Source of the DNA: [Empedobacter] haloabium
GTDB lineage: Bacteria; Pseudomonadota; Gammaproteobacteria; Burkholderiales; Burkholderiaceae_D
Assembly: GCA_008011715.2 (NCBI GenBank)
Contig: CP136508.1
Coordinates: 3,844,001-3,908,000, forward strand
Length of the DNA: 64,000 nt
Reading direction: 5' to 3'
A program made the position numbers and the translations under genes. The notes beneath the pieces are model-generated. The model searched no databases. It was given only the letters and a program-made list of their open reading frames with translations, and was not told where the DNA came from. Below, piece after piece: positions 5,301 to 42,992 of the stretch. Positions within the stretch are counted from its first letter, which is position 1; every line of letters begins with the position of its first letter.

Positions 5301-5332
5301 GAGGGTCTCCTGGATTGTCTTTTTATGAATCT

Positions 5333-5399
5333 ATAGTAGGAGAAACGTTCATGTCGATCCAATACATTTTTTGTCTCCCGCGATATCTTTTTTGTTATC
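5333..5399 (-). promoter_or_regulatory. Promoter and palindromic operator of the transporter operon (site 1)
   Basis: On the minus strand: an 18-bp palindrome of the GATAT-N8-ATATC type at 5382-5399 (right arm has one mismatch, TTATC), 18 bp, then ATTGG overlapping the -35 TTGGAT (5357-5362), 18-bp spacer, and -10 TACTAT (5333-5338), about 33 bp before the ytfQ start. The palindrome overlaps the stop codon of the GH127 gene. The same layout with identical spacing occurs at 19340-19406 and 26923-26989. If the start point is about 7 bases past the -10, the palindrome is centred near -64, which would suit an activator. Confidence 0.7.
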
Positions 5400-7743
5400 A
5401 CTCGCCGCGCAGCAGCTTGAGGCCGTACAGGCCCCCGGCCAGCGAACCCGGATGGGCGGCAAACTTGACGCTCAGCGATCCGTCGTGAGTCGTGCGGGCT
5501 GGCAAGTCGATCTCGACGTCGTAGAACTCGCGCTCGTTCGGGCCCAGCGTGATGGTGCGGAGCAGCTGGTCGTCGACCAGGACGTCGAAGCGGCGGCCGG
5601 CATCCGCGGCGGCAAACGTCAGCCGCAGCACCCTGCCCTCGCCGGCCTTGTCGTTCAGGCGGTAGCTGAACCATCCGCTGGCATGGCGCCAGTGCCGGCC
5701 GCCGTTGATGCCCGCGTCCGCGCCTTCGCCCTGGAAGCCATGGTCCGATTCCGGCTGCTGTTCGCCCGGTGCCACCTGGTCGATCGTGCGCCGGGCCAGC
5801 GCGATGCGCTCGGCCTCGCCCTGCGCCGTGCGCGCGCGCAGCTCGGCCGCGCCGGCCGGGGTGCTGTGCTGCCAATACAACATATAGCGCGCGTCGTGCA
5901 GGCGGAAGAACGGGATCAGGCGCAGGCCGGCCGCGTTGGGGCCCTGGATCAGGCCCGGCGCCGTGAAGGTCAACGGCTGCCCTGGCACGGGCTTGAAGCG
6001 GTGCAGGAAGTCCCTGGTGTCGCTGACGAACAACGGCGCAGCCTCCTGCGGACAGGTCGGCCCCTGGGCGATATGGCCCATGCGCGAGCCGTCCGCGAAC
6101 ACGTTCAGCGTTTCGTGCGCGAACGGTGCCGTCTTCGCCGCCAGCACGATGGGGCCATGCAGCACGGCGTAGTGGTTCGAACGGTCTGGCAGCTGTTCCA
6201 GGCGCGTCGTCATCGGCAAGGCCACGTCTACCGTGTCGCCGTCGCGCCAGGCGCGCGCGATGCGCACGTAGCCGTCTTCGCCGGCCACGGCCTTGACTGG
6301 CTTGCCGTTGACCTTGAGGCGCAGCGCGCCCGGCTTGACCCAGCCGGGGTAACGCAGCTTCAAATTCAGTGTGGCGTTGCCGCGCACCGTCAGGCGGCTG
6401 CTGGCCCGGTCGGGGAATTGCGTGCTTTGCTCGATGCGCACGCCCTTGGCGCGCCAGTCCAGCGTGGACGGGATGTACAGGTTGACGTACAGGTCGTCGC
6501 CGTCGTGGGCGTAGATGAATTCACCGTGCCTGGCGTGGCTCTCGATGCCGGAGCCCACGCAGCACCACATGCCTTCGTCCACCTGCGAATACACGCGGTA
6601 GTGATTCGGCCGCATCGGCGTGAAGTACACGAAACCGCCCGACCCGGGCCGCTGCGAGGCCAGGATATGGTTGTACAGCGCGCGTTCATAATAGTCGCCG
6701 TAGCGCCGCGACGGCCGCCGTTCGAACAGCAGGGCCGTCAGCTTCAGCATATTGTAGGTATTGCAGGTCTCGGGCCCTTCCACCTCGTCGACCATCGGCG
6801 CGAAGCTGGCGCTGTCGTGGAAGTGCTCCTTGACGCTGTTGCCGCCGATGGCGACGGAGCGCTTCTCCACCACCGTTTGCCAGAATGTGCGCGCGGCCGC
6901 ATCCCACTGCGGCTCGCCGGTGGCCTGGCCGATGCGCTCGAAGCCGATCACCTTCGGGATCTGGGTATTGGCATGCAAGCCGGTCAGGCGGTCCTCGCCG
7001 GCTGCCAGCGGTTGCAGGATGGCCTGGTGCGAGAAGCGGCGCGCCAGGTGCAGGTACTTGATGTCGCCGGTGAGCCTGGCCACGTCCGCCAGCACCTCGT
7101 TCATGCCGCCATGCTCGCTTCTGAGCATCGCTTGCATCTGCTCGTCGGACAGGCGCGCCGTCAGCGCCAGTGCCCAGTCGGACAGCTTGACCAGCATGGC
7201 GCGCGCGTCCTCGTTGCCGGCGTATTGCCACGCATCGCGCAGGCCGGCAAAGGTCTTGTGCAGGTTATACCATGGCACCCACTTGCCGTTGACGCTGAAG
7301 TTGTCCGCATGGAGCTTGCCTTGCGCGATCTCGCCCCAGGCGGCGCGCCCGCCGGGAATGCCGCCCAGGTAGCCGTCGGCCGCCTGGCATTTCTTCAGCT
7401 CCGCAACGAAGTAGTCGAGTCGTTCGCGCACGCGCGCGTCGCCGGTGGATGCGGCCATCAGCGCCAGCGCGGACAGGTAATGCCCGCCCATGTGCCCGTC
7501 CAGCCCGGACGACTCCCAGTTGCCGTAGCTGGGCTTGACCAGCGCCAGCCCCGCCTCGCGGCGAAACGGCGCCAGCAGGCGCTCGGCGTCCAGCGCCAGC
7601 AGGTAGCGCAGGTCGGTCTGCTGCGCCTGCAGGAACGGACCGTCAGTGAGGCGCACGTCGCGCAGCGGGAACAGTTCGGCGGCGGAGGCGGACAGCGCCA
7701 GCGAGAGCGCGACACCGGCGCCAAGACAGGAAAACAGCTTCAT
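5398..7743 (-). CDS. Exported beta-L-arabinofuranosidase, GH127/GH146 type
   Basis: 781-aa DUF1680-type glycosidase with a signal peptide (residues 1-22). The zinc-thiolate active site of family 127 (HypBA1) is visible: Glu325 and Cys327 in PETCNTYN, and Cys394-Cys395 in GMWCCVGSG, where one cysteine is the nucleophile. Glu306 (VKEHF) fits the acid/base position. The catalytic alpha/alpha barrel comes first; beta-sandwich domains follow from about residue 400. The family releases beta-L-arabinofuranose from glycoproteins or pectic side chains. Family 146 is closely similar and cannot be excluded. It is the last gene of the large GH cluster; an intergenic repeat separates it from the endo-arabinanase gene. 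Confidence 0.9.
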   Translation of the reverse strand: MKLFSCLGAGVALSLALSASAAELFPLRDVRLTDGPFLQAQQTDLRYLLALDAERLLAPFRREAGLALVKPSYGNWESSGLDGHMGGHYLSALALMAASTGDARVRERLDYFVAELKKCQAADGYLGGIPGGRAAWGEIAQGKLHADNFSVNGKWVPWYNLHKTFAGLRDAWQYAGNEDARAMLVKLSDWALALTARLSDEQMQAMLRSEHGGMNEVLADVARLTGDIKYLHLARRFSHQAILQPLAAGEDRLTGLHANTQIPKVIGFERIGQATGEPQWDAAARTFWQTVVEKRSVAIGGNSVKEHFHDSASFAPMVDEVEGPETCNTYNMLKLTALLFERRPSRRYGDYYERALYNHILASQRPGSGGFVYFTPMRPNHYRVYSQVDEGMWCCVGSGIESHARHGEFIYAHDGDDLYVNLYIPSTLDWRAKGVRIEQSTQFPDRASSRLTVRGNATLNLKLRYPGWVKPGALRLKVNGKPVKAVAGEDGYVRIARAWRDGDTVDVALPMTTRLEQLPDRSNHYAVLHGPIVLAAKTAPFAHETLNVFADGSRMGHIAQGPTCPQEAAPLFVSDTRDFLHRFKPVPGQPLTFTAPGLIQGPNAAGLRLIPFFRLHDARYMLYWQHSTPAGAAELRARTAQGEAERIALARRTIDQVAPGEQQPESDHGFQGEGADAGINGGRHWRHASGWFSYRLNDKAGEGRVLRLTFAAADAGRRFDVLVDDQLLRTITLGPNEREFYDVEIDLPARTTHDGSLSVKFAAHPGSLAGGLYGLKLLRGE

Positions 7744-7762
7744 GGATCATCCTGGATAACTG

Positions 7763-7953
7763 CCGGGCCCGTGTCCCACCTCGGTGTCAGTCACCGAAAC
7801 GGGACACGAGCCCGGCCGTTGCATTGGTTTAGTTCGTGCCCCACCTTGGGGCCCCACTCGGGGCCAGTCCCAAGCGAGACACGACCTCGACCATCTGTAT
7901 GGCTCAGCCCGTGTCCCAGTCTGGTGACTGACCCCGTGGTGGGACACAAGCTC
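7763..7953 (-). repeat. Extragenic palindromes (REP/BIME type, GTGTCCC class)
   Basis: The 214-bp gap between the GH127 and GH43 genes is filled by three related units. The first (7763-7815) has arms CGTGTCCCACC and GGGACACG. The middle one is degenerate (about 7830-7890). The third (7906-7953) has the core GGTGACTGACCCC, which is the reverse complement of the GGGGTCAGTCACC type core of the first. Outer units are therefore in opposite orientation, as in a BIME. The same paired arrangement recurs at 53604-53727. Confidence 0.7.
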
Positions 7954-7957
7954 GGCA

Positions 7958-8989
7958 CTAGCGCGCCGGCAGCAGCCGGCTCTGGTAGCTGTCCAGCTGC
8001 GCCGGGTCCACCGTCGGCCAGCCGGCGCTGTCCCATCCGATATCGAGGACTTTCAGCTTCTGCTGGTAGCGGTCGGCCGTTTCGTAGGCGTGCAGCACCA
8101 GCACGTCACGGCCGTCGAACGTGTAGGCACTGTTGTGGCCCACGCCGATCCAGTTGCGGTTGCCCTTCACGACCAGCGTGCCGCCACCCTTCGCCATGTC
8201 CTTGCCATCCTTGTCCAGGTACGGCCCGGTGACGTCGCGCGCTCGGCCCACGACGACGTGGTAGGTGCTCTTCTCCTTCTGGCAGCACAGGCCCCAGGAG
8301 GCGAACAGGTAGTACCAGTCGCCCTTCTTGAAGATGAACGGCGCCTCGACCTCCTGCGGTGCCGCCTCGCCGGCCGGCGTGAGCGTCGGCGCGCGCGTGG
8401 CGATCGTGTGCCACTGCTGCGGTTCGGCCGGCCGGGTCCAGCTGGCATCGAGCCTGACCAGCTTCAGCCCGCCCCAGAACGAGCCGAACGCCATCCAGCC
8501 GTTGCCCGCCTTGTCGGCGATGACGGCCGGGTCGATCGCGTTCCATTCGTCCCGGTTCGGCAGCGACCGCAGCACCATCCCCTGGTCCTCCCACCTGTAG
8601 TCGGGCGAACGGGGATCGAGCGTCTTGTTGACCGTGACGCCGATACCGGAGGTGTTCTTGCCGAAGCTCGATACCGAGTAGTACAGCAAGAACTTGCCGT
8701 CATGGCGCACCACGTCCGGCGCCCACACGTGGCCGTCGAACTGCGGCGCCACGCGTTTCGCCCACGCGGGCTCGCCCGCGAACACACGCCCTTCCGGCAC
8801 CCAGTCCTTCATGTCGGCCGAGCTGTAGAACGTGATGCCCGGCCCCGTGCTGAAGACGTAATAGCGGGCGCCGTCCTGCGCCATCACGGGGTCATGCACC
8901 TCCACCTGGGCCGCCTGCGCGGCGCAGGTGAATGTAATCCCGCCCGCCAGGCAGGCGGCAAGAAGGGCCATTGCCTTGGTACTGTTCAT
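7958..8989 (-). CDS. Exported endo-alpha-1,5-L-arabinanase, GH43 (subfamily 5 type)
   Basis: About 343 aa, secreted (signal peptide to about residue 28). GH43 catalytic residues are Asp33 (EVHDPV), Asp153 (NAIDPAV) and Glu215 (EVEAPFI). The segment LCCQKEKSTYHVVVGR is typical of arabinan endo-1,5-alpha-L-arabinosidases, which cut the backbone of debranched arabinan. Two start codons are 6 bases apart: 8995 has the Shine-Dalgarno GAAGG directly against it, so the second ATG at 8989 with better spacing was chosen. It follows the lipoprotein GH43 gene by 12 bases in the same operon. Confidence 0.9.
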   Translation of the reverse strand: MNSTKAMALLAACLAGGITFTCAAQAAQVEVHDPVMAQDGARYYVFSTGPGITFYSSADMKDWVPEGRVFAGEPAWAKRVAPQFDGHVWAPDVVRHDGKFLLYYSVSSFGKNTSGIGVTVNKTLDPRSPDYRWEDQGMVLRSLPNRDEWNAIDPAVIADKAGNGWMAFGSFWGGLKLVRLDASWTRPAEPQQWHTIATRAPTLTPAGEAAPQEVEAPFIFKKGDWYYLFASWGLCCQKEKSTYHVVVGRARDVTGPYLDKDGKDMAKGGGTLVVKGNRNWIGVGHNSAYTFDGRDVLVLHAYETADRYQQKLKVLDIGWDSAGWPTVDPAQLDSYQSRLLPAR

Positions 8990-9001
8990 TCTCATCCTTC
9001 T

Positions 9002-10537
9002 TCAATTGCCGGTACGGACGCCCCACAGCGAGACGCCTTCGGCATTCTGCACCGAGAACGTCACCGTGAACGCATTCGCGTTGCTGTTCCACTGGCGCGA
9101 CAGCACGCCGCGATACTGCCTGGTCGAGCCGTCCAGGGTCAGCGCGACGTTGTTCTCGCCCCGGTGCGCCCACGTGCCCTTGACGGCACCCGTCACCTTG
9201 CCGTCCTTGCCCAGCCTGACGACCTGCGACGGCACCACATGGGCCGTGATCTCCTTGTTGTGGTTGACGAACTTGTAGGTGCCCGCCGCCGCCGTCGCGC
9301 TGACCGAGACCGGCACCTCCTTGCCCTTGCTGAGCGGGACGTAGCGCAGCGGCGCCACCACCGGCCAGCCATCCTCGTTGATGAACATCTGGTGTACGCG
9401 CAGCTCGTGCATCTCGCCCATGTTCGGGAAGCGCGTGTGGAACACGAGGAAGTGCTGCTTGGTCGCGGCGTCGTAGAACGCGCTGTTGTGGCCCGCCGAC
9501 ACGTAGCCCAGCGGCGTGCCGGTCTCGCCGGAAGCCAGCGCGAACTGGTGGTTGCCGAACAGCTTCTGTCCATGCGGCGCGATGCTGGCGTCGTCGAACA
9601 GCGGCTTGCTCGGGTCGGACTTGACGGTCGCCATGTCGGTGCCCTTGCCGTCCAAGTACGGACCGTCCGGATTGCGCGAGCGCGCCACGCGCATATTGTA
9701 GGCGCCGAAGGAATCGAGACCGCCGAACGACGTGAACATGTAGTAGTACTTCGACTGCGGGCTGTACAGCACGTAGGCGCCTTCGATGCGCGAGTGGTTG
9801 CCGCCCAGGAGGTGCTTGCCGTAGCCCTGGCCCGGCAGCGGCATGCCGTTGGCCGGGTCCAGCTGCAGGATGAAGATGCCGCCCGAATAGGAGCCGTAGA
9901 TCATCCACAGCTTGCCCTTCTGGTCGCGGAACACGTTCGGATCGACCGTGTTCGGGTGCTTCGTCGCGTCGTAGATCGTGCCGTCATGGCTGGCCTGGCC
10001 CCACATGCCGGACTTCAGGATGATGCCCTTGTCGACGTACGGACCCTCGATATGGTCGGCCACCGCGATCCCCAGCGCCGAACGGGGCGAGTCGCCCTTG
10101 CAGGCGTTGTAGTACATATAGTATTTGCCGTCGTCCAGGCGGATCACGTCCGGCGCCCACAGCGTGGACGTTTGCGCCCAGGCGAACGTCTCGGCCAGCT
10201 GGCCCGCCACGTTCGGGATCAGCGGATTGGCCGCGTTGACACCGTCGGCGATCTTGGTCCAGTTCATCAGGTCCGGTGTCTTCGCCGCCGCCAGGTGCGA
10301 GCCGAACACGTAATACTGGTTATTGGCGCGTATCACCGAAGGATCGTGCACGCCCGCTTCGGTGAACCCCACCGACAGGCGCTGCGCGGTGGTGGACAAG
10401 CCACCGCTCTTGGTGCCGGAAGTCGTGACCGACGCCGCGGTCGTCGCGCCGGCCGGTTCGTCACCGCCGCCGCCGCATGCCGCCAGCGAAACCGCGCCTG
10501 CCACTGCCAGGGCCTTGAAGAGGATAGAGGTCTGCAT
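9002..10537 (-). CDS. GH43 arabinanase lipoprotein with C-terminal beta-sandwich domain
   Basis: 511 aa. The signal peptide ends in a lipobox (SLAAC, Cys21), so the enzyme is a lipoprotein, followed by a Thr/Ser-rich linker to about residue 55. The GH43 five-bladed domain spans about 60-400 with Asp65 (GVHDPSV), Asp199 (NTVDPNV) and Glu252 (RIEGAYV). A C-terminal domain (about 405-511) resembles the extra domain of large arabinanases such as Bacillus AbnB/Abn2. Probably cell-surface or periplasmic cleavage of arabinan or arabino-oligosaccharides. GGAG lies 8 bases before the start and only 3 bases separate it from the GH51 stop, so the two are co-translated. Confidence 0.9.
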   Translation of the reverse strand: MQTSILFKALAVAGAVSLAACGGGGDEPAGATTAASVTTSGTKSGGLSTTAQRLSVGFTEAGVHDPSVIRANNQYYVFGSHLAAAKTPDLMNWTKIADGVNAANPLIPNVAGQLAETFAWAQTSTLWAPDVIRLDDGKYYMYYNACKGDSPRSALGIAVADHIEGPYVDKGIILKSGMWGQASHDGTIYDATKHPNTVDPNVFRDQKGKLWMIYGSYSGGIFILQLDPANGMPLPGQGYGKHLLGGNHSRIEGAYVLYSPQSKYYYMFTSFGGLDSFGAYNMRVARSRNPDGPYLDGKGTDMATVKSDPSKPLFDDASIAPHGQKLFGNHQFALASGETGTPLGYVSAGHNSAFYDAATKQHFLVFHTRFPNMGEMHELRVHQMFINEDGWPVVAPLRYVPLSKGKEVPVSVSATAAAGTYKFVNHNKEITAHVVPSQVVRLGKDGKVTGAVKGTWAHRGENNVALTLDGSTRQYRGVLSRQWNSNANAFTVTFSVQNAEGVSLWGVRTGN

Positions 10538-10540
10538 GGC

Positions 10541-12076
10541 TTACTCCACGGACGTGACGACGACGGATTTCGCCGGCAGCTGGACGGTCAGCTTGCCCCC
10601 GCTGGCCTGGGCCGCGAACGGCGCCGGTTTTACCGCATCGGGCGTGGCGAACGTGTTGTGCGCATCCATCGCGGCCGCCGTCAGCACCTGGCCGACGGCC
10701 TTGCCCGCGCCGGCACCCGCGACGTTGACGGTGACATCCACCGCCTTGTTCGGGTTGGTGTTGACGAGCGCCAGGTAGACCTTGCCGTCCTTGCCGCGCG
10801 CGGCCGAGGCGCTGACCTGCGGCACCGCCACGTTGCCCACGCTGTACTTGCCGTTGTTCTTGATCGCCACCGGCAGCGCGGTCGCGTCCTGGAACGGCAC
10901 GTACATGCGGAACGCGTGATAGGTCGGCGTCAGCACCATGCGGTTCTTGTCGGTCAGGATCATCGCCTGCAGCACGTTGACCATCTGCGCGATGTTCGTC
11001 ATCCGCACGCGATCGGCATGGGCATGGAAGATGTTGAAGTTCAGCGCGGCGACGACGGCGTCGCGCAGGCTGTTCTGCTGGTACAGGAAGCCGGCGTTGG
11101 TGCCCGGCTCCACGTCGTACCAGGTGCCCCATTCGTCGACGTACAGGCCGATCTTCTTCTGCGGGTCGTTCTTGTCCATCAGGGCCGTGTTCTGGCGTAT
11201 CAGCTTGTCCATCGCCAGCGTGTTCTTCATCGTGCTGGCCCACTGGTCTTCCTTGAAGCCGGTGGCGGCGCCTTTCACTTCCCACTTGCCGGTCGGGATC
11301 GTGTAGTAGTGGAAGCTGATGCCGTCGATATTGTGCTTGATCTGCTTGGACAGCACGTCGGTCCAGCGCATGTCGTTGTCATGGCCGCCGCTGGCGACGA
11401 ACTTCGGTTTGGCGTTCGGTGGCGTGCGCACGAAGGCGGCCGCGTTCTTGTACAGGTTGGCGTAGTGTTCCGGCGTCATGTTGCCGCCGCAGCCCCAGGC
11501 CTCGTTACCGATCGCGAAGTAGTCCAGCTTCCAGGGCTTGTCGCGGCCATTCTTGCGACGCAGCTCCGCCAGGGTGGACTTCGAATCGGAGGTCATGTAC
11601 TCGACCCATTCCGACATCTCCTGGTTGCTGCCCGTGCCCAGGTTGCCGTTGACGTAGACCTCGGCGCCCAGCAACTCGGCCAGGTCGAAGAACTCGTGCG
11701 TGCCGACGGCGTTGTTCTCTTCCACGCCGCCCCAGTTGGTATTGACCTTGACGGGGCGCTTGTCGCGCGGGCCGATGCCGTCCTTCCAGTGGTACTCGTC
11801 GGCGAAGCAGCCGCCGGGCCAGCGCACCAGCGGCACGTGCAGCTCCTTCAGCGCGCCGACCACGTCGTTGCGCCAGCCCTTGGTATTCGGGATGCTCGAT
11901 TCCGGACCGACCCACATGCCCTCGTAGATGCCGGTGCCCAGGTGTTCGGCGAACTGGCCGTAGATGTTCTTGTTGATGACGGGACCCGGCTTGGCCGTGT
12001 CGATCGTCACCGCTACCTGCGCGAACGCGCTGCCGCAGGCGGCGAGGCTCAGGGCCAGGATGGTACGCTTGATCAT
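10541..12076 (-). CDS. Exported alpha-L-arabinofuranosidase, GH51
   Basis: 511 aa with a signal peptide (residues 1-19, AFA-Q), unlike most GH51 enzymes of Bacillus, which are cytoplasmic. The TIM-barrel signature residues are Glu192 in AIGNEAWGCGG (acid/base) and Glu315 in YVDEWGTW (nucleophile). The N-terminal segment with GQFAEHLG and WPGGCFADEY is conserved in the family. A C-terminal beta-sandwich begins near residue 400. It removes terminal alpha-L-arabinofuranosyl groups from arabinan or arabinoxylan. It lies between GH97 and the GH43 lipoprotein genes in one run of minus-strand genes. Confidence 0.95.
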   Translation of the reverse strand: MIKRTILALSLAACGSAFAQVAVTIDTAKPGPVINKNIYGQFAEHLGTGIYEGMWVGPESSIPNTKGWRNDVVGALKELHVPLVRWPGGCFADEYHWKDGIGPRDKRPVKVNTNWGGVEENNAVGTHEFFDLAELLGAEVYVNGNLGTGSNQEMSEWVEYMTSDSKSTLAELRRKNGRDKPWKLDYFAIGNEAWGCGGNMTPEHYANLYKNAAAFVRTPPNAKPKFVASGGHDNDMRWTDVLSKQIKHNIDGISFHYYTIPTGKWEVKGAATGFKEDQWASTMKNTLAMDKLIRQNTALMDKNDPQKKIGLYVDEWGTWYDVEPGTNAGFLYQQNSLRDAVVAALNFNIFHAHADRVRMTNIAQMVNVLQAMILTDKNRMVLTPTYHAFRMYVPFQDATALPVAIKNNGKYSVGNVAVPQVSASAARGKDGKVYLALVNTNPNKAVDVTVNVAGAGAGKAVGQVLTAAAMDAHNTFATPDAVKPAPFAAQASGGKLTVQLPAKSVVVTSVE

Positions 12077-12109
12077 GTCTTCTTGTCTCCGTGGTTGTAG
12101 GTCTTGTGC

Positions 12110-14020: not shown

Positions 14021-14078
14021 AGTCGTAACGGTGAAAGCGCAGCCCATGGCGGGCCGCGTGCAGCGAACGGAAACTACT

Positions 14079-14105
14079 GGGGTCGAACCCGGCGGGTCCG
14101 ACCCC
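14079..14105. repeat. Small extragenic palindrome (GGGGTCG...CGACCCC)
   Basis: A near-perfect 27-bp inverted repeat between the SDR and GH97 genes, related to the other GGGGTC-type palindromes of the window. It could form an RNA hairpin that lowers read-through or stabilises the upstream message. Confidence 0.5.
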
Positions 14106-14120
14106 GGCCCTCCAGCGACC

Positions 14121-14888
14121 TCAGACCCAGCCGGCGTCCACGATGAATTCCTGGCCCGTGCACATGGCGCTGTCGTCCGCGCCCAGGAACAGGATCATCG
14201 AGGCCACGTGCTCCGGCATCAGCTTGCCCGGCAGGCATTGCGCCTTCTTGATCTCGATTTCCGCCGCGTCGTCCACCCACAGGTCGATCTGGCGCTGCGT
14301 CATGACCCAGCCCGGCGTCACGGTGTTGACACGGATGCCGTACGGGCCGAAATCGCGCGCCAGGCAGCGCGTCAGGCCGATCACGGCCGCCTTGGTGGTG
14401 CCGTAGACGGGATAGCCGCCGTTCTTGGCATGCCACGACATCGAGCTGATATTGATGATCGAACCGCCGCCCTTCTTCTTCATGCCCGCCAGGACGGACT
14501 GGCAGGTGAAAAACATGGGACGCTGGTTGATCGCGATGCGGTCGTTCCAGTATTCCAGCGTGACCTCCTCCGGCTTGTGGCGCTGGTCGTTGGCGGCGTT
14601 GTTGACGAGGATGTCGAAGTCGCCCATCTCCGCCGCCAGGTCGGCGATGGTCTTTTGCAGCGCCGGGATGTCGGTGATGTCGCAGTAGCGGTAGCGCGGC
14701 GCCGGATGGCCGGCCGCCTTGATGCGCTCGACCAGACCCAGGCTGGCTTCCTGCGCAATGTCGACGAACGCGACGTGCGCGCCCTGCTGCGCATAGCTTT
14801 CCACGATGGACTCACCGATGCCGGTGCCGCCGCCCGTGACGAATACGCGCTTGCCGCGCAGGCTGCCGAACTTGGCCAACTCTGTCAT
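14121..14888 (-). CDS. SDR oxidoreductase, probable L-arabinose 1-dehydrogenase
   Basis: 255-aa classical short-chain dehydrogenase, cytoplasmic. The cofactor motif TGGGTGIG is at residues 18-25, NNAA at 96-99, and the catalytic set is Ser149, Tyr162, Lys166 (YGTTK). An Asp after the second strand (FVDI, residues 41-44) usually indicates NAD(H) preference. It lies 31 bases behind the semialdehyde dehydrogenase of an oxidative pentose pathway that otherwise lacks a sugar dehydrogenase, so oxidation of L-arabinose to the lactone is the best guess. Another pentose, fucose or galactose dehydrogenase role is possible. Confidence 0.85.
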   Translation of the reverse strand: MTELAKFGSLRGKRVFVTGGGTGIGESIVESYAQQGAHVAFVDIAQEASLGLVERIKAAGHPAPRYRYCDITDIPALQKTIADLAAEMGDFDILVNNAANDQRHKPEEVTLEYWNDRIAINQRPMFFTCQSVLAGMKKKGGGSIINISSMSWHAKNGGYPVYGTTKAAVIGLTRCLARDFGPYGIRVNTVTPGWVMTQRQIDLWVDDAAEIEIKKAQCLPGKLMPEHVASMILFLGADDSAMCTGQEFIVDAGWV

Positions 14889-14919
14889 AACTGTCTCCCT
14901 ATCGTTGTTATTGTACCGT

Positions 14920-17468: not shown

Positions 17469-17532
17469 GAGGTCTCCTTGTGCGCGGCGGCACGGCCGGG
17501 AACGCGTCCCGGCCGTGCCGCCTGCTTTTTGA

Positions 17533-19275
<1,743 letters not shown>

Positions 19276-19339
19276 GCATTCCTCCGTGTTGTTCCAGGCC
19301 CGGCGCCATGGCTGTCCACGACGGGCTGCGATGGAAAGC

Positions 19340-19406
19340 ATGTTAGTTAAAGCAACGATATCTTTCCAATGAATAAAAAATTGGTTGTGATATAAAAAAG
19401 GATATC
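19340..19406 (-). promoter_or_regulatory. Promoter and palindromic operator of the arabonate-degradation operon (site 2)
   Basis: Minus-strand promoter: perfect palindrome GATAT-N8-ATATC at 19389-19406, 18 bp, ATTGG with -35 TTGGAA (19364-19369), 18-bp spacer, -10 TAACAT (19340-19345), some 65 bp before the dehydratase start. All spacings equal those of sites 1 and 3. The A6GG centre is in the opposite orientation to the CT6G centre of the other two, as expected if only the symmetric arms are recognised. Confidence 0.72.
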
Positions 19407-19467
19407 GGAGCTGGCAAGCTGCCGGGAATTGGCGACTCTCCCCGAGGTCAGGCAACGATCGGTAGGA

Positions 19468-19592
19468 AATTTCCGGGACAGTCCCCGGAAATTGGGAAAG
19501 GACGACGGGACGAAACAGTCTGGCTCAGCCGGCTATGGCCTCAGAGTTGCCTAGCCGGGGCGTCGGAATAGTCCGGGACAGTCCCGGAATTC
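19468..19592. repeat. Extragenic palindromes between GH43 and dehydratase promoter
   Basis: Two related inverted repeats lie in this 125-bp stretch: one at about 19468-19492 built on TTTCCGGGACAGTCCCCGGAAA-like arms, and one at about 19571-19592 (TCCGGGACAGTCCCGGA core) that touches the end of the GH43 gene at 19591. The rest of the 315-bp gap 19276-19590 holds the promoter described separately and nothing else recognisable. Confidence 0.6.
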
Positions 19593-20586
19593 AGTCGGGG
19601 CTCGTGACGAAGTCAGGCGTGCCATCGGCGCGCCAGCCGATCGATCTGGCCCGGGTATGCCGGTTGGGATCATTCAGCTCATTGCCTGGGATGTCACGGT
19701 AATCGCGCGCGTGATAGACGATGATGTCCTGCTTTCCATCGGGCGTGGTGGTGAAGCAATTATGTCCCGGGCCATACAAGCCGCCGCCGCTGGCCAGCAC
19801 GGGCATTGGCGACTTGGTCCAGGCCGCCTTGTCCAGCAAATTGGCCCCCTCCCCGGCCGTCAGCATGCCCAGCGCGTAGTTGGCGTCCGTCGCGCTGGCG
19901 GAGTACGTCAGGAATACCTTGCCGTTGCGTACCAGCACGGCTGGCGCCTCATTGACGTCGAACTTCACTTTTTCCCAGGCATACTCGGGCAAGGTGAGCA
20001 AGGTAGCGGGACCGTCCAGCGCCAGCGGCGAGCGCATCTTCGCCAGATAGATACCGGTGACGTGTTTGTCGGCGGCCGGCGGGCGCTGGGTCCAGGCCAG
20101 GTAGCGTTGGCCGCGCACGGCGAACGTCGTCGCGTCCAGCGAGAACGATTCCCAGCCGGTGTCGATGCGACCCCGTTCCGTCCACGTCCCTTCCAGCGGA
20201 TTGGCGGACGGGTTCTCCAGCACGTACAGGCGGATGTCCAGCGGCGCGTCGGCGCGGCCCGCCGTGAAGTACAGGTACCATTTTCCGTCGATGCGGTGCA
20301 GTTCCGGCGCCCAGATATTGGCGCTCATCGGCCCCGATGCATGCCGGCGCCAGACTACCTTGGTGGACGCCGCGCCCAACCCGTCCAGCGTCTTCGCGCG
20401 ACGCAGCTCGATGCGGTCGTACTCCGGCACCGTGGCCGTGAAATAGTACCAGCCGTCGGTGTGCAGGGTGACGTGCGGGTCGGCGCGCTGCCGCACCAGG
20501 GGATCGTGCGGGGAGAACGCGCCGGCGTCGGCGCACAGCAAGGCGAGGGCTGCCAGCACGGCGCCCGTGGTCAGGGAAGTCGTCAT
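19591..20586 (-). CDS. Exported GH43 glycosidase
   Basis: 331 aa with a signal peptide (residues 1-23, ADAGA). The GH43 triad is Asp36 (RADPHV), Asp151 (SLDATTF) and Glu213 (VNEAPAV). It is a paralogue of the cytoplasmic GH43 at 21821-22774: the segment DRIELRRAKT and the SYSASATDANYALGM / SYSASATDHNYAMGL pair are shared, but this copy has an export signal. Likely alpha-L-arabinofuranosidase. A GC-rich hairpin lies 16 bases before the start and no good ribosome site is visible, so translation may be weak or controlled. Confidence 0.88.
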   Translation of the reverse strand: MTTSLTTGAVLAALALLCADAGAFSPHDPLVRQRADPHVTLHTDGWYYFTATVPEYDRIELRRAKTLDGLGAASTKVVWRRHASGPMSANIWAPELHRIDGKWYLYFTAGRADAPLDIRLYVLENPSANPLEGTWTERGRIDTGWESFSLDATTFAVRGQRYLAWTQRPPAADKHVTGIYLAKMRSPLALDGPATLLTLPEYAWEKVKFDVNEAPAVLVRNGKVFLTYSASATDANYALGMLTAGEGANLLDKAAWTKSPMPVLASGGGLYGPGHNCFTTTPDGKQDIIVYHARDYRDIPGNELNDPNRHTRARSIGWRADGTPDFVTSPD

Positions 20587-20601
20587 TGTGCGGGGAAATT
20601 G

Positions 20602-20634
20602 CCTGGAAAATGGGGTCTGTCCCCGTTTTCCAGG
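20602..20634 (-). repeat. Extragenic hairpin before GH43 start (GGGGTCTGTCCCC core)
   Basis: Inverted repeat with 14-bp arms (CCTGGAAAAtGGGG and its complement, one mismatch) around the loop TCTGT, between the epimerase stop and the GH43 start. A second GGGGTCTGTCCC core without a full partner arm follows at about 20653-20664. In the message it would fold just upstream of the GH43 start region, so it may attenuate or terminate transcription. Confidence 0.6.
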
Positions 20635-20671
20635 AAAGATTGCTTCAAAACAGGGGTCTGTCCCGGGTTTT

Positions 20672-21733
20672 TCAGGCTTGCGTCGTGAAGCGGTACAGCG
20701 AACGCGTCGAATAGGTTTCGCCCGGGCGCAGGATCGTGCTGGGGAACTCGGGCCGGTTCGGCGAGTCCGGGAAATGCTGCGGTTCCAGGCAGATGGCCGA
20801 GCGGTGCTCATAGGTCCAGCCCTTGCCCGCCAGGCTGCCGTCGAGGAAATTGCCACTGTAGAACTGCAGCCCCGGCTCCTGCGTGTACAGCTCCAGCACG
20901 CGGCCCGAGCCGGGGTCGCGCAGCACGGCGGCCAGGCCCAGCACGTTCGATTCGCCCTTGTTCAGCACGAAGTTGTGGTCGTAACCCAGACCGTTCTTCA
21001 GCTGCGCGTCGTCGGCCTCGATGGCCTGGCCGATGCGGCGCGGCTTGCGGAAGTCGAACGGGGTGTACTCGACCGGCGCCAGTGGGCCCAGCGGGATCGA
21101 GTTCTCGTCGATCGGCGTGTAGCGGTCGGCGTTGATCTGCAGCTCGTGGTCCAGCACCGTACCCTTGCCTGCCAAATTGAAGTAGGCGTGCTGTGTCAGG
21201 TTGACCGGCGTGGCCTGGTCGGTGGTGGCGTGGTATTTGACCAGCAGCTCGTTGGCGTCGTTCAGCTCATACGTGACCGTTACCTCCAGGTTGCCCGGGT
21301 AGCCCTGTTCGCCGTCCGGACTGGTGTAGGTCAGTTTCAGGCCGATCGACAGGTCCGCCACCATCGGCACCGCGTGCCAGACCACCTTGTCGAAGCCCTT
21401 GCTGCCGCCATGCAGGTGGTTCGGGCCGTTGTTGACGTCCAGTTGCACCGTGCGGCCATCGAGCTGGAAGCGGCCGCCGGCGATGCGGTTGCCGTAGCGG
21501 CCGATCAGCGCGCCGAAGTAAGGCGAATCGCCGAAGTACGGCTCCGGCGTGTCGAAGCCGAACGTGACGTCGGCCAGGTTGCCCTGGCGGTCCGGCACGT
21601 GCAGTTCCGTGATGATGCCGCCCAGGTTGGTGATCTTGACGATCATGCCGCTGCGGTTGCGCAGCGTGTAGAGGCTCAGCGGGGTGCCGTCCGGCGCCTG
21701 GCCGAACGGTTCCTGTTCTATCGAGAGTTCCAT
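20672..21733 (-). CDS. galM: Aldose 1-epimerase (mutarotase)
   Basis: 353 aa, no signal peptide, so cytoplasmic. Conserved mutarotase elements: NHLHGG with His106/His108, NLTQHAYFNL with His182 (acid) and CLEPQHFPD with Glu317 (base). It interconverts alpha and beta anomers of aldoses; the neighbours suggest L-arabinose released inside the cell by the cytoplasmic GH43. In an oxidative pathway it supplies the anomer used by the sugar dehydrogenase. The spacing of 87 bases from the upstream GH43 gene contains a tandem repeat. Confidence 0.92.
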   Translation of the reverse strand: MELSIEQEPFGQAPDGTPLSLYTLRNRSGMIVKITNLGGIITELHVPDRQGNLADVTFGFDTPEPYFGDSPYFGALIGRYGNRIAGGRFQLDGRTVQLDVNNGPNHLHGGSKGFDKVVWHAVPMVADLSIGLKLTYTSPDGEQGYPGNLEVTVTYELNDANELLVKYHATTDQATPVNLTQHAYFNLAGKGTVLDHELQINADRYTPIDENSIPLGPLAPVEYTPFDFRKPRRIGQAIEADDAQLKNGLGYDHNFVLNKGESNVLGLAAVLRDPGSGRVLELYTQEPGLQFYSGNFLDGSLAGKGWTYEHRSAICLEPQHFPDSPNRPEFPSTILRPGETYSTRSLYRFTTQA

Positions 21734-21767
21734 GCGTTGTTCGCTTCTTGTTATCAGCGCCGGGACA

Positions 21768-21803
21768 GGCCGATGACCCGGCCGATGACCCGGCCGATGA
21801 CCC
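21768..21803. repeat. Three perfect tandem copies of a 12-bp unit
   Basis: The unit GGCCGATGACCC is repeated three times without change in the 87-bp gap between the GH43 and epimerase genes. No protein is encoded there. A length-variable repeat at this place could change the spacing between co-transcribed genes or the leader of galM. Confidence 0.75.
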
Positions 21804-21820
21804 GGGCCGGCGCCGCCGGC

Positions 21821-22774
21821 TCAGGCAATCGAAGGCCGGCCGAAATCCGGCATGCCGTCGGCATCCCAGCGCAAGGGTTTGACGAAGGTATGGCGGTCCG
21901 GATTCCACAGCGGATCGCCGACGATTTCAGTATAAGTCCTCGCATGATAGACCAGGAGCACGGTTGAACCGTCTTCCGCCACCGTGAAGCTGTTGTGGCC
22001 CGGGCCGTAGATCTTGTGCTCGAAGCAAGTCTGCAGCACGGGCTGGTCGGCCTTGTGCCAGGACGCCGGGTCGAGCAGATCGGCATTCTCGTCCGCCCAC
22101 AACAGGCCCATGGCGTAGTTGTGGTCCGTCGCGCTGGCCGAGTAGCTGATGAAGATCTTGCCGTTCTTCTTCAGTACCGACGGGCCCTCGTTGACGAGGA
22201 AGCCGCGGCATTCCCACTCGTGTTCCGGTTTGCTCAGCATGACCGGCGCGCCCGCGATCTGCCATGGCGTTTTCATCGGCGCAATGTACAGGTTGGAGTT
22301 GCCCTCGATGTCCTCATGCTTCTGCGCCCACAGGTAGTACAGCTGGCCCTGGTGGGTGAACGTGGTGGCATCCAGGCAGAAGCTGTCGATGCCCGTGTCG
22401 ACCTGGCCCATGAACTCCCACTGCCCTTCCAGCGGATTGGCGTTCTCGTTGCGGATCGCGTACATGCGGTGCTGGAACAGCTTGTTCTTGATCTCGCGGC
22501 TCGGCGCGGCCGCGAAGTAGACATACCAGGCGCCCTGGTTGAAGTGGATCTCCGGCGCCCAGATCAGTTCCGAGTATGGACCCGTGTCCGGCTTCCTCCA
22601 GACGTCGCGCGTTTGCGCGCTGGCCAGGCCTTCGATGGTCTTGGCGCGGCGAAGTTCGATGCGGTCGTACTGGGGCACCGACGCCGTAAAATAATAATAG
22701 CCATCCGTGTGACGATAGATGTAGGGATCGGCGCGTTGCTCGATCAGGGGTTTCAGCAATTGAGTCAAGTTCAT
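21821..22774 (-). CDS. Cytoplasmic GH43 glycosidase, probable exo-alpha-L-arabinofuranosidase
   Basis: 317 aa without signal peptide or lipobox; the catalytic Asp16 (QRADPYI) comes immediately after the start, so no export segment is missing. Other active-site residues are Asp135 (FCLDATTF) and Glu196 (VNEGPSV). It follows the GPH symporter gene by 15 bases, which points to hydrolysis of imported arabino-oligosaccharides inside the cell. It is a paralogue of the exported enzyme at 19591-20586. Confidence 0.9.
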   Translation of the reverse strand: MNLTQLLKPLIEQRADPYIYRHTDGYYYFTASVPQYDRIELRRAKTIEGLASAQTRDVWRKPDTGPYSELIWAPEIHFNQGAWYVYFAAAPSREIKNKLFQHRMYAIRNENANPLEGQWEFMGQVDTGIDSFCLDATTFTHQGQLYYLWAQKHEDIEGNSNLYIAPMKTPWQIAGAPVMLSKPEHEWECRGFLVNEGPSVLKKNGKIFISYSASATDHNYAMGLLWADENADLLDPASWHKADQPVLQTCFEHKIYGPGHNSFTVAEDGSTVLLVYHARTYTEIVGDPLWNPDRHTFVKPLRWDADGMPDFGRPSIA

Positions 22775-22789
22775 TCTCCGTAGGGTCGG

Positions 22790-24145
22790 TCAGGCGGCGT
22801 AGCCGTGCGTGAGCATCTTGGCTTTCACGGTGCCGTAGTATTCGTCGCTGATGCGGTAGCGGAACATCAACAGCCCCATCACCAGGTGGAAGAAGCCCGG
22901 GATCACCGTCAGCATCAGCGCGATGCCGGTCAGCGCCAGCGGCGACTGCGCCACGTTGGGCTGGTACTGGAAGTGCGTCAGCAGCAGGCCGACCAGCGCG
23001 CCGGCGATGCCCATGCCGGCCTTCTGGCACACCGAGATGCCGCCGAAGGCGAAGCCGGAAACGCGCGTGCCGGTCTTCACCTGGCCGTAGTCGATCGTCT
23101 CGGCGATGGCCGACCAGAACACGGGCGCATGCAGGTCGACGATGAACGACAGCAGGAAGTACAGGACAAAGGCCAGCACCATGTCGCCCGGCTTGACGAA
23201 CAGGTAGATGGCAAGGCTGATCAGCGCGACGACGACCTGCGAGTTGCGGAACAGCTTGACCTTGCAGTAGCTCTTGGTGATCCAGGTCGAGGCGACCATC
23301 GACAGGATGGCGGCTGCCACGCCGGTGGACAGGAAGGCCGACACGATGGCCTCGTCGCCGCCCAGGTAGTACTTGGCGTAGTACATGGCGACCGAGCCGC
23401 GCACCACATAGCCGATGGTGCCGGTGACGCAGGCGCCGCACAGGATCAGCCACTGGTCGTTCTTCAGCAGCACCTTCAACTGGTCCAGCAGCGGCTGGCG
23501 CTCGACCACGTGGTGCACGCGCTCCTCGGTTGAAAAGAAGCAGAACAGGAACAGCACGACGCCCATCAGCGACATGAGCGCCATCGCGGCCTGGTAGCCG
23601 GCGGCCGGATTGCCGCCGCCCCACTCCTTGGCCAGCAGCGGTACGATGATCGTCACCATGAAGGCGCCGATCTTGGCGAAGAACAGCCGGTAGCCATTGG
23701 CCGACAGGCGGTCCTGCGGGTCGCTCGTCAGGCCGCTGATCAGCGAGATGTAGGGGATGCCCACGCCGGCCGTCATCAACGTCATCAGGATGTAGGTCGA
23801 ATAGGCCCAGACCATCTTGGCGTCATAGCCCCAGTCGGGCGTGGAGAACACGAAGAACACCGAGACGCCATACGGCACCGCCAGGAACAGCAGCCATGGC
23901 CGGTAACGGCCGAAGCGGTTGGTGAACCGGTCCGTGATCTGGCCCATCACCAGGTCGGCAACGGCGCCGATCACCTTCACGGCCAGGAACAGCAGCGCGA
24001 GGTCCTCCGTGTGCAGGCCGTAGATGTCGGTATAGAAGAACGTGATGATCAGCATCATCGATGAGATCACCACGTTCAGGGCCATGTCGCCCGCGCCGAA
24101 CCCTACTTTTTCCACCGTCGATAATTTTTGCATCTTCATTCCCAT
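22790..24145 (-). CDS. GPH-family sugar:cation symporter (MelB/XynB/XylP type)
   Basis: 451-aa inner-membrane protein with about 12 hydrophobic segments. Family hallmarks are the N-terminal GFGAGDMALN and the loop after helix 2 (GQITDRFTNRFGRYRPW), which matches the glycoside-pentoside-hexuronide group. Three start codons occur within 13 bases (24145, 24139, 24133); the later ones have a GGGA element better placed, so the first four residues are uncertain. It lies between the TonB receptor and the cytoplasmic GH43, consistent with cytoplasmic uptake of arabino-oligosaccharides. Confidence 0.9.
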   Translation of the reverse strand: MGMKMQKLSTVEKVGFGAGDMALNVVISSMMLIITFFYTDIYGLHTEDLALLFLAVKVIGAVADLVMGQITDRFTNRFGRYRPWLLFLAVPYGVSVFFVFSTPDWGYDAKMVWAYSTYILMTLMTAGVGIPYISLISGLTSDPQDRLSANGYRLFFAKIGAFMVTIIVPLLAKEWGGGNPAAGYQAAMALMSLMGVVLFLFCFFSTEERVHHVVERQPLLDQLKVLLKNDQWLILCGACVTGTIGYVVRGSVAMYYAKYYLGGDEAIVSAFLSTGVAAAILSMVASTWITKSYCKVKLFRNSQVVVALISLAIYLFVKPGDMVLAFVLYFLLSFIVDLHAPVFWSAIAETIDYGQVKTGTRVSGFAFGGISVCQKAGMGIAGALVGLLLTHFQYQPNVAQSPLALTGIALMLTVIPGFFHLVMGLLMFRYRISDEYYGTVKAKMLTHGYAA

Positions 24146-24214
24146 CAGAAGGACCGCGGGGCCCTGGCCGTTTGCCGGTCAGCGCCCCATTCCATGACTG
24201 CCCGCGTTAGCCGC

Positions 24215-26863
24215 TCAGTTCTTCCAGCGCAGCGCCACGCCGATGGTGCGGTCGTAGCGGCGGATGTCGCGCGCCAGTTCCGGCACCGAGTGGTAATCCT
24301 TGTACTTGAAGTCGGTCAGGTTGGTGCCGTCCACCGTCAGGCTGAGGTTCTTCGTCAGCTTGTAGGTGATGGACGCGTCCAGCGCCTTCATCGGATCGAC
24401 CACCAGGTCGTACTGGGTGGCGCGGTAGGCGTACTCCGAGACGAAGCGCGAACGCCAGCTGTACGCCACGCGGGCCGACCAGTCGCCCCGCTCGTACAGG
24501 CCGATCAGGTTGTAGGCCCACTTCGACATGCCGGCGAAGCTGTTCACCTTGCCGTCCGGTTCCGTCAGGCCGCCGTGCATGTAGGTGCCGTTCGCCTCCA
24601 GGCCGAAGCCGCCCAGCCAGCCAGGCAACCAGTCGTAGAACTGCTTGTACGCGATTTCCACGCCCTCCAGCTTGCCGTCGCTGGTGTTGTACGGGCGGCT
24701 GACGTCATAGGTGATGCCGTCGTACGTCTCGGGCGCGGACTTGCGGCGGATGTAGTTCTTGAACTCGTGCGAAAACACGGTGCCGGTGACGGAGCCGGTC
24801 GGTGCAAAATACCACTCCAGCGCCGCGTCCAGGTTCTTGCTCTCGATCGGCTTCAGGTTCGGATTGCCCGAGGTGCCGGTCGCCAGCGTCGTGTTGCCGG
24901 CCGCGTGCAGCACCAGACCCGGATTGAAGTCGGCGAAGGCCGGCCGCTGCGTCGCCTTGACCCAGTTGAAGCGCGCCTGCAGGTCCTCGCGCAGCTTGGC
25001 GCGCAGCGCCACGTTCGGCAGGTAGTCCGTGTCGGTCGTCTTGGTGCTGGCGCCGACGACGACGTTGTTGATCAGCGAGTTGCCGCGCAGGTCCTGCTCG
25101 GTGCGCACGGCACGCACGCCGAGCGTGCCTTCCACCGGTACCGACCAGGCGTCGAACGCGATGTCGGCCTTGCCGTACAGGGCCTGGGTCTTCTCGATGT
25201 CGGCGTAGAACGACAGCGGGTCCTCCGGGTTCGGGGTGGTCGTCCCGGTGAACATCTGGCGCAGGTCAGCGGTGTTGTTCAGCAGGTAGCTGGCGCACGG
25301 CATCGGGAATTGCGAGATGCCGTAGTTGCCCGCCGTCGGCCGCGACACGCAGGTGAAGCCGGGGATCGAGTTGATCATGACCTGCCTGGCCGAATAGGCG
25401 CCCGGGTGATTGACGGAGCCTTCGATGCCGTGGATCGACGCGGCGCGGCGCTTGGCGATGCGCACTCCGCCTGCGAATTCGCGGAAGAAGCCCTTGGCGG
25501 CCGGCTCGTAGATGGCGTCGGCGCGCCAGTCGGTGGAGCTGCCTTCGTCGTGGCTGTGCTGGTCGAAGAATTTCTCGAGGAAGAAGTTGGAGCCCGTCGT
25601 GATGTCCGAACCCGGGTAGGTGATCGAGCCGATGCCGTTGTCGATGCGGCCGGACACGTTCGGCATGTAGCCGACGATGTCGACGATCGGATTCTGGTTG
25701 CGGAACTTGCTGACGGTGCGGGCCAGTTCCGTCTTCAGGCGCAGCTGGTCGTTGACGTCCCAGGTAGCGCCGGTGGCGGCCTGCGTGGTGCGCGAGTAGT
25801 GGCGGCGGCCCTGGGTGGACGTCAGGGTCCACTGGTCGGCGCCTTCCTTGCTGATCGACTGCAGGTAGTTCGTGCCGGGCACCGTGGTGATGGTGGCGCC
25901 CTTGTTCAGGGGCAGCTGGCCCAGGAAGAAATTGGTCTGGGCATCGTGCTCGATGCGGGTATTGATCACTTCCGCAAACACTTCGACGTCCTTGTTCGGG
26001 CGCCACTGCAGCACGCCGTTGCCGGCCCAGCGCTTGCGGTCGCCGCCCGTCATCACGCGGCCGATCGTATCCGGGCCCGTCAGGCCGTTCTCGATCGACA
26101 GCGGCACGCCGACCCAGGCGCCTTCGTCCTGGTAGCGCCCGCGCTGGTAGGAATAACCCAGCAGCGCGCCGAACTCGCCGTACGCCGTCTTCCAGCGGTT
26201 CGACACCATGCCGGACAGCTGCGGATCGGTGGCTTTTGCCTTGTCGCGATTCTCGGCGCGGGCCACCGCGCTGGCGGTGGCGCCCTTGAAGTCGAACGGC
26301 CGGTTGGTGCGCACGTCGATGACGCCGGCCGTGCCGCCTTCGACCATGTCGACGCCCTGCGACTTGTAGACGTCCAGGCGCGACAGCATCGTGGTCGGGA
26401 TATCGGCCAGGAACAGGCTGCGGCTGACGGCCGAGAACATCTCGCGGCCGTTCAGCAGGGTGACGGCACCCGGCAGGCCGCGGATGACGACGTTGCTGGC
26501 CTCGCCGGCCTCGCGGATGATCTGCACACCGGTGATGCGGCCCAGGATCTCGGCCACGTTCTTGTCCGGAAACTTGCCGATGTCGTCGGCGACGATGGAG
26601 TCCACCACCTGCTCGTTGTTCTGCTTGAAGGCCTGGGCGCTGCGCGCGGCGTTGCGGATGCCCGTGACCGTGACGACATTGGCGGAGCTGTCCGTGGTGC
26701 CGGCCGCGCTGGCGCCGGCGCTGTCGGCCACGCTGTCGGCACCTTGCTGCGCCCACACGGAAGCGCTGCTCAGCGCTCCGGCGGCAGCCAGTGCCGCCAC
26801 TGTGACTTTCAAGGTGAAAGGATTGCGAGCGGGCGCGACACGGCCCGAAGGGACAGTCTTCAT
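24215..26863 (-). CDS. TonB-dependent outer-membrane receptor, Xanthomonas/Caulobacter carbohydrate type
   Basis: 882 aa with a signal peptide ending VWA-Q (about residue 38). The plug domain (about 60-220) carries GKFPDKNVAEILGRITGV and MVEGGTAGVIDVRT, characteristic of the TonB_Xanth_Caul group that takes up plant-derived oligosaccharides. The barrel follows and ends in GVALRWKN with the usual aromatic/hydrophobic terminus. GGAGACC lies before the start. As first gene of an operon with a symporter, two GH43 genes and a mutarotase, it probably imports arabinan fragments across the outer membrane. Confidence 0.93.
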   Translation of the reverse strand: MKTVPSGRVAPARNPFTLKVTVAALAAAGALSSASVWAQQGADSVADSAGASAAGTTDSSANVVTVTGIRNAARSAQAFKQNNEQVVDSIVADDIGKFPDKNVAEILGRITGVQIIREAGEASNVVIRGLPGAVTLLNGREMFSAVSRSLFLADIPTTMLSRLDVYKSQGVDMVEGGTAGVIDVRTNRPFDFKGATASAVARAENRDKAKATDPQLSGMVSNRWKTAYGEFGALLGYSYQRGRYQDEGAWVGVPLSIENGLTGPDTIGRVMTGGDRKRWAGNGVLQWRPNKDVEVFAEVINTRIEHDAQTNFFLGQLPLNKGATITTVPGTNYLQSISKEGADQWTLTSTQGRRHYSRTTQAATGATWDVNDQLRLKTELARTVSKFRNQNPIVDIVGYMPNVSGRIDNGIGSITYPGSDITTGSNFFLEKFFDQHSHDEGSSTDWRADAIYEPAAKGFFREFAGGVRIAKRRAASIHGIEGSVNHPGAYSARQVMINSIPGFTCVSRPTAGNYGISQFPMPCASYLLNNTADLRQMFTGTTTPNPEDPLSFYADIEKTQALYGKADIAFDAWSVPVEGTLGVRAVRTEQDLRGNSLINNVVVGASTKTTDTDYLPNVALRAKLREDLQARFNWVKATQRPAFADFNPGLVLHAAGNTTLATGTSGNPNLKPIESKNLDAALEWYFAPTGSVTGTVFSHEFKNYIRRKSAPETYDGITYDVSRPYNTSDGKLEGVEIAYKQFYDWLPGWLGGFGLEANGTYMHGGLTEPDGKVNSFAGMSKWAYNLIGLYERGDWSARVAYSWRSRFVSEYAYRATQYDLVVDPMKALDASITYKLTKNLSLTVDGTNLTDFKYKDYHSVPELARDIRRYDRTIGVALRWKN

Positions 26864-26922
26864 AGGTCTCCAATGTCTTGTAATTATTTAGTGCAGTTTT
26901 GAAACTGCTTGCCTGCGGAGCA

Positions 26923-26989
26923 TCTTAAGGGGGACAAATGAATTCGATCCAATCAATTTTTCCGCTCTTGCAATATCTTTTTTGATATC
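26923..26989 (-). promoter_or_regulatory. Promoter and palindromic operator of the TonB receptor operon (site 3)
   Basis: Minus strand: palindrome at 26972-26989 (arms AATAT and ATATC, centre CTTTTTTG identical to site 1), 18 bp, ATTGG with -35 TTGGAT (26947-26952), then a weaker -10 (TTAAGA at 18 bp or TAAGAT at 19 bp spacing, 26922-26928). The first bases after the -35 (CGA) and the sequence TCGATCCAAT are also shared with site 1. It is 60 bp upstream of the receptor start and begins 10 bp beyond the stop of the regulator gene. Confidence 0.7.

Positions 26990-39522: not shown

Positions 39523-42988
<3,466 letters not shown>

Positions 42989-42992
<4 letters not shown>

Follow-up and report, generated by a model that had tools for sequence, protein, structure and literature searches.

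A 67-bp promoter element shared by arabinan and arabinose genes of [Empedobacter] haloabium and its relatives, with a probable LysR-type regulator

In the case of [Empedobacter] haloabium, three promoters within one 64,000-nucleotide stretch (contig CP136508.1, positions 3,844,001 to 3,908,000, hereafter the window) carry a common 67-bp control element for the uptake and breakdown of plant arabinan: a GATAT-N8-ATATC dyad, 18 bp, ATTGG, a further 18 bp and a −10. Which protein reads this element, and how? A sequence-only reading of the window had described the architecture, supposed an activator at about −64 and seen no cognate regulator among the recognisable genes. We observed that the element is conserved with fixed spacing before sugar genes of many genera, and that it co-occurs with, and often adjoins, one gene for a LysR-type regulator. 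The element is most likely the binding site of this regulator, as judged from these associations. We infer that a GbpR-like LysR protein binds it, responds to a sugar effector and activates, thereby controlling an arabinose/galactose regulon, and we put the probability of this reading at about 0.84.

Counting from the first base of the dyad, the dyad occupies positions 1–18, ATTGG 37–41 and the −10 62–67 (rather 63–68 at site 3). All three sites lie on the minus strand; their dyads deviate from GATAT-N8-ATATC by one, zero and one base at sites 1, 2 and 3, and ATTGG follows each exactly 18 bp further on within a −35 of TTGGAT or TTGGAA, as the sequence-only reading had it. At site 1 the dyad GATAAC-N6-GATATC (5382..5399), the predicted recognition binding site (RBS) of the regulator centred near −64, is followed by an A-tract, a T and ATTGGAT (5357..5371), which form the −35 region and a predicted lower contact region, and by the −10 TACTAT (5333..5338) with a start predicted near 5326. 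Site 2 reads directly as GATATC-N6-TATATC (19389..19406), followed by a T-tract, a T and ATTGGAA in the −35 region (19364..19378) and by the −10 TAACAT (19340..19345), with a probable start near 19333. It is also the only one with a complete third half-site, GATATC at 19357..19362, 32 bp below the second half of the dyad; sites 1 and 3 match this half-site at four of six bases. The dyad of site 3, GATATC-N6-GATATT (26972..26989), is likewise a direct reading, and its −35 region again consists of an A-tract, a T and ATTGGAT (26947..26961). An 18-bp spacer had been claimed for all three −10 boxes. This stands for TACTAT and TAACAT, but not for the TTAAGA proposed at site 3: related promoters aligned by eye (e.g. 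L029 and L032) carry TAAGAT with an 18-bp spacer and the window has one base more, and the box is therefore better read, by this comparison, as TAAGAT (26922..26927) with a 19-bp spacer and a putative start near 26915.

The palindrome alone, allowing one mismatch, was found three times in the window against 0.17 expected, and none of 100 shuffles reached three. A later profile added no place scoring at least 5 in the window, forward or reversed, in agreement with the earlier remark that no other such pair of half-sites is present there. Over the 6.48-Mb genome, the palindrome alone occurred at 72 places with at most one mismatch (11 for the reversed control) and was for this reason dropped as a search key. 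The copies of GATATCCGYAAGGATATG repeated in this genome that were tested (L006, L008 and L014) proved to be 23S rRNA genes. The composite of palindrome, N18 and ATTGG was found four times with at most one mismatch, and seven times with at most two against one control match. The four comprise the three window sites and a site at G000:C1:6214475 (L052), before a TonB receptor gene 2.3 Mb away. A fifth, weaker site with two mismatches and a profile score of 36.8 (G000:C1:3330803-3330843, minus strand, L022) precedes a gene for an MFS-family permease; the other two places with two mismatches were L021, without a profile match of at least 5, and a coding-type sequence, GATATGTTC. Many occurrences at unrelated genes, the outcome named beforehand as adverse, were not seen in this genome scan.

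Similarly, conservation at orthologous loci was found. The pattern proposed by the sequence-only reading was present in 66 of 74 genus genomes, with three stray control matches in total, some of the 66 resting on coding-type sequence that starts GATATGTTC or GATATGCTC (e.g. the sole match of G038); such matches were excluded from the logo. Among 392 family genomes, a tightened pattern was found in 183 and its control in none, in every row. The looser pattern with at most one mismatch reached 260 of the 392, a count that overstates the spread: about 25 rows had a control match and many matches outside the core genera lacked the A-tract. For these two reasons the tighter pattern was used for counts.

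Conservation within the element extended beyond the parts used for its selection. A logo of 54 unique sites showed also an A/T tract at 29–33, T35, AT at 42–43 and the −10 at 62–67. In 99 non-redundant sites T3, A16, T17 and G41 were invariant and positions 8–11 A/T-rich; T3 and A16 enclose 12 bases (T-N12-A). The half-site GATATC (at least five of six bases) started at position 1 in 81, at 13 in 84 and at 45 in 25 of the 99, every other offset giving at most 10. Positions 45–50 and the −10 are not part of the profile score and were nevertheless conserved. Around the −35, the A-tract, T35 and ATTGG, with the third half-site at 45–50 where it is present (25/99), make a candidate activation binding site (ABS); the pair T35/A48 (91% and 72%) lies at about −32.5. 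The dyad itself is centred at about −64.5, as reckoned from the conserved −10 with a presumed start seven bases below. The spacing was again fixed in 80 loci that had been retrieved with the regulator protein rather than the motif: with dyads of at most one mismatch and ATTGG allowed at any spacing from 5 to 39, N18 was observed in 52 of 62 cases, and the reversed control gave one case.

The genes behind the element are sugar genes. In the window, each element stands before the first gene of its row, as had been noted for the transporter, the arabonate dehydratase and the TonB receptor. Site 1 heads a minus-strand row of a periplasmic sugar-binding protein (4335..5300), a sugar ABC transporter ATPase (2806..4335), a permease (1733..2809), a second permease ending at 753, a GH43 gene across the window edge and, outside the window, a LysR gene. 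Behind site 2 is a gene for an arabonate dehydratase-like IlvD/Edd protein (17533..19275, minus strand), which scores 843 bits against the L-arabinonate dehydratase equivalog, whose cut-off is 882. Behind site 3 is a gene for a TonB-dependent receptor (TIGR01782; 24215..26863, minus strand). In the loci examined, 170 unique sites scoring at least 28 headed genes for sugar-binding proteins (62), TonB receptors (27), arabonate dehydratase (22), ChvE-like proteins (16), DgoK (5) and LamB porin (2), shares that are biased since the loci were picked partly by motif and partly by LysR. The remaining 36 were unlabelled; they include a group of 8 porin-like genes as well as GH43, GH97, GH3 and lactonase genes. 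Labels were given by BLAST to eight reference proteins, and 9 of the 36 had no downstream open frame found; gene calls and first-gene choices came from home-made code, which misplaced some genes. Pfam supports one example each of DgoK, LamB, Gram-negative porin, GH97, GH3 and lactonase. 'ChvE-like' is a label of this analysis for a protein with a Peripla_BP_4 domain; paired sites were observed before such genes, in tandem in L241 (17942-18145) and L245 (9694-9927), and facing opposite operons in L214 (16527-16810).

That no cognate regulator is evident is true of the window itself; the gene of a likely one, of the LysR type, ends 310 bp past its left edge. This gene (G000:C1:3842753-3843691, equal to L102:6753-7691, minus strand) lies behind the ABC genes of site 1 and the GH43 gene, and LysR-type genes of this kind recur in loci around the sites of relatives (L055, L068 and L071), the own homologue being 74% identical to the L055 query. 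The 313-aa product carries an HTH_1 domain (PF00126, 71.6 bits) and a LysR substrate-binding domain (PF03466, 120.7 bits), each scoring higher than its cut-off, in line with the two domains and about 300 aa typical of such regulators, and thus belongs to the LysR type. Its best NCBIfam match was PcaQ (TIGR02424), at 182.4 bits far under the cut-off of 303.8. GguR was also considered and dropped, as the literature assigns it to the GntR family. Between the GH43 and LysR genes a search for a T-run terminator found none, yet a highly stable hairpin lacking such a run is present (L102:7690-7790, minus strand; −50.5 kcal/mol, z −3.64), which leaves co-transcription of the LysR gene with the site 1 row uncertain. 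A paralogous LysR clade (L112, G022:C21), 63% identical, has its gene flanked on either side by sites, which precede GH97 and lactonase (SGL) genes.

We then compared the distributions of the LysR gene and the element. The own LysR protein had a match at E ≤ 1e-85 in 189 of the 392 family genomes; 177 genomes carried both this gene and the tight motif, 6 the motif only, 12 the LysR gene only and 197 neither, an agreement in 374 of 392. The genomes are related, so that Fisher values computed from these counts are not true probabilities. Of the 44 genera, 12 had the motif and 12 the LysR gene, with 11 common to both; g20 had the motif only and g24 the LysR gene only (one contaminated genome). 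Within genera the two come and go together, as g19 (35 both, 1 motif only, 0 LysR only, 19 neither) and g33 (7/0/0/36) demonstrate; g27 gave 23/1/2/8 and g12 10/2/1/4.

The two are also neighbours. The search with the LysR protein alone had yielded 80 loci, and 65 of these contained a site scoring at least 25, while the reversed control reached at best 12.6 over 1.57 Mb. In 56 of the 80 the site lies 4.6–5.9 kb upstream of the LysR gene on the same strand and, in those inspected, heads a gene row of the type found in the window. In five inspected loci (L240, L241, L243, L214 and L227) it is flanked by the LysR gene on one side and a divergent row on the other; these represent about three lineages, L240 and L241 being of one genus and L243 and L227 much alike. 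The regulator gene is thus linked or divergent to its presumed targets, as is usual for the LysR type, in the site 1 row, in these 56 loci and in the five divergent ones. The 15 loci without a site in the stretch examined were nine from Roseateles, Pelomonas and Paucibacter, counting one metagenome-assembled genome near them, four short contigs, and L201 and L204.

More distant homologues carried weaker forms of the element, scoring much lower than the core set; no match of 8 or above was obtained in the reversed loci. One profile match per 17-kb locus was found beside LysR homologues of Comamonadaceae (58% identical, score 18.5), Paraburkholderia (54%, 25.9) and Caballeronia (51%, 17.4), each in the gap before a divergent operon. 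Azospirillum lipoferum 4B, whose homologue is 40.5% identical, had three matches (21.1, 16.9 and 19.5), before ytfQ, a lactonase gene and chvE, at 2556-2622 (minus), 7865-7931 (minus) and 8952-9018 (plus) of L264.

Taken together, the conservation of the element, its constant spacing, the nature of the genes behind it and its joint occurrence with a single regulator gene strongly support a shared regulator acting from about −64. The activator previously supposed at this position is upheld as a shared regulator, while activation rather than repression is presumed. The geometry fits the LysR type, as a dyad near −65 above the −35 is the usual one: LysR-type transcriptional regulator (LTTR) promoters are described, in the portion of PMC8407307 drawn on here, with an RBS around −65 and ABS at −35 and −10. 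Promoters of this kind, e.g. those of BenM/CatM at benA and catB, share with the element a dyad lying upstream near −65 and, as predicted here, contacts that span the −35 (PMC8407307). According to the excerpt of PMC6628147 used, Site 1 of BenM/CatM is ATAC-N7-GTAT, similar to the ATAY and RTAT of our half-sites, and the benA model has an UP-element flanked by dimers, to which we liken the element described here. In contrast to BenM/CatM, the whole 67-bp layout is repeated here at several operons of one genome.

Several observations weigh against control by this LysR protein. The half-sites are 8 bp apart and all 99 non-redundant dyads read T-N12-A, not the textbook T-N11-A; the cited portion of PMC8407307 names T-N11-A, T-N10-A and T-N9-A. 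Of the 189 LysR-bearing genomes, 12 lacked the tight motif; a looser profile found a site in two of these (L177, Pseudoduganella lurida, and L186, Massilia eburnea) and none in the stretch examined of L201 and L204, Massilia/Pseudoduganella loci, the LysR gene of the L204 copy (L111) standing among genes unlike sugar genes. In loci of the Roseateles/Mitsuaria/Pelomonas/Paucibacter type, with LysR 74–79% identical, 9 of 13 had no site and 4 had weaker ones (29–36), and no site was found in the locus of Azospirillum thermophilum (LysR 44.6% identical). Conversely, six genomes had the motif and no close LysR, three of them less than 90% complete and three not. In L241 and L245, the ChvE sites have a different LysR-type gene immediately upstream. 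Finally, the co-occurrence may stem in part from joint inheritance of the arabinose genes among related genomes.

This last point leads to an alternative in which some other, unlinked regulator, inherited with the arabinose genes, binds the element while the LysR gene merely travels along. As the LysR gene is mostly in the same gene row, linkage alone would yield much of the co-occurrence, and the different LysR-type genes adjoining ChvE sites in two loci also speak for it. We nevertheless consider it unlikely in view of the divergent LysR/site layout in five loci, the presence of sites at a great distance from the LysR gene within one genome, the weak but well-placed sites beside homologues of 40–58% identity and the LTTR-typical position of the dyad; moreover, besides one gene near site 3, no other regulator gene recurs beside sites in the loci read.

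This gene, encoding a winged-helix protein with a STAND-type ATPase (Trans_reg_C and AAA matches; 26999..28285, minus strand), has its stop codon 9 bp before site 3 and is itself a candidate for the cognate regulator. Relatives at E ≤ 1e-20 were found in 30 of the 74 genus genomes, in at least 12 of the 30 within about 11 kb of a listed site and in four within 190 bp, so that the neighbourhood is recurrent in part of the genus. However, the family sample includes 48 genomes of the genus that carry the motif: at this threshold 32 had no such relative, whereas the LysR gene was present in all 48. Moreover, of the three sites only site 3 has the winged-helix gene next to it. As cognate regulator it is quite improbable; it may act as an additional regulator in some members of the genus. 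The eight best relatives have longer open frames (441–788 aa) than the window protein. Genes for a LuxR-type response regulator (about 28500–29107, plus strand) and a 7TMR-DISM hybrid kinase (38481–42992, plus strand) are found in this region too, along with the arabinan genes. A further alternative is that the element is no more than a strong A-tract/UP-element promoter preserved by common descent, without a dedicated DNA-binding regulator. This would account for the conserved −10 and A-tract just above the −35, but is hardly credible, as the upper dyad is among the best-conserved parts, symmetric, and present before different sugar genes in many genera.

Control by the GbpR-like LysR protein could then proceed as follows. 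One dimer would sit on the RBS formed by the dyad GATAY-N8-RTATC, with its centre at about −64.5, and the partner dimer of a tetramer would contact the lower region, i.e. the A-tract, T35, ATTGG and the third half-site at 45–50, including the −35. With arabinose, a related sugar or an intermediate, the lower contacts of the tetramer would change, and RNA polymerase would be either recruited to the TTGGAT / TAnnAT promoter or set free there. The resulting regulon would unite TonB-dependent outer-membrane uptake, ABC uptake, oxidative arabinose breakdown and arabinan hydrolases, and the LysR protein may raise its own level, since its gene stands behind the site 1 genes. More tentatively, and with rather less than even confidence, one LysR regulator might run an entire multi-operon regulon, from polysaccharide to central metabolism, through a near-rigid 67-bp module, in which the T-N12-A dyad is centred at −64.5 and some sites have, next to the −35, a third half-site exactly 32 bp (three turns of the helix) downstream of it. 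Such a module might be an old, portable class of sugar-sensing promoters with fixed two-dimer geometry, as is suggested by the weakened forms beside homologues in Paraburkholderia and Azospirillum.

Inducers of GbpR, the galactose-binding protein regulator of Agrobacterium, are arabinose, galactose or fucose. LysR control of sugar uptake is already known: GbpR, of the LysR type, controls chvE in the presence of sugars (PMC4086400, as far as its cited part describes), and AraR is a predicted LysR-family regulator of arabinose genes in Halomonas, those of an arabinose ABC transporter and the pathway (PMC5507952, in the part used). The likeness to GbpR lies in the LysR type, in the ChvE-like first gene at 16 of 170 sites and in the Azospirillum lipoferum 4B homologue, which stands beside chvE-mmsA-mmsB; the source name of one close homologue begins 'Galactose-binding prot'. 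The regulon considered here differs by its TonB receptors, arabonate dehydratase and hydrolases, and the comparison with the Agrobacterium protein is one of published description. The regulator is accordingly named GbpR-like, not GbpR. No description of this box was found in the literature searched, subscription journals and regulon databases lying outside that search.

The regulon promoter described here is thus genuine and conserved, and probably answers to a LysR regulator; of interest are mainly its rigid geometry and the breadth of its targets. For arabinan and arabinose use in a large bacterial group, it provides a probable regulator and a predicted binding site. The comparative set of 170 unique, or 99 non-redundant, promoters may serve to learn how LysR tetramers read promoters of fixed geometry. 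The element also predicts more targets per genome, here the distant TonB receptor and the MFS permease.

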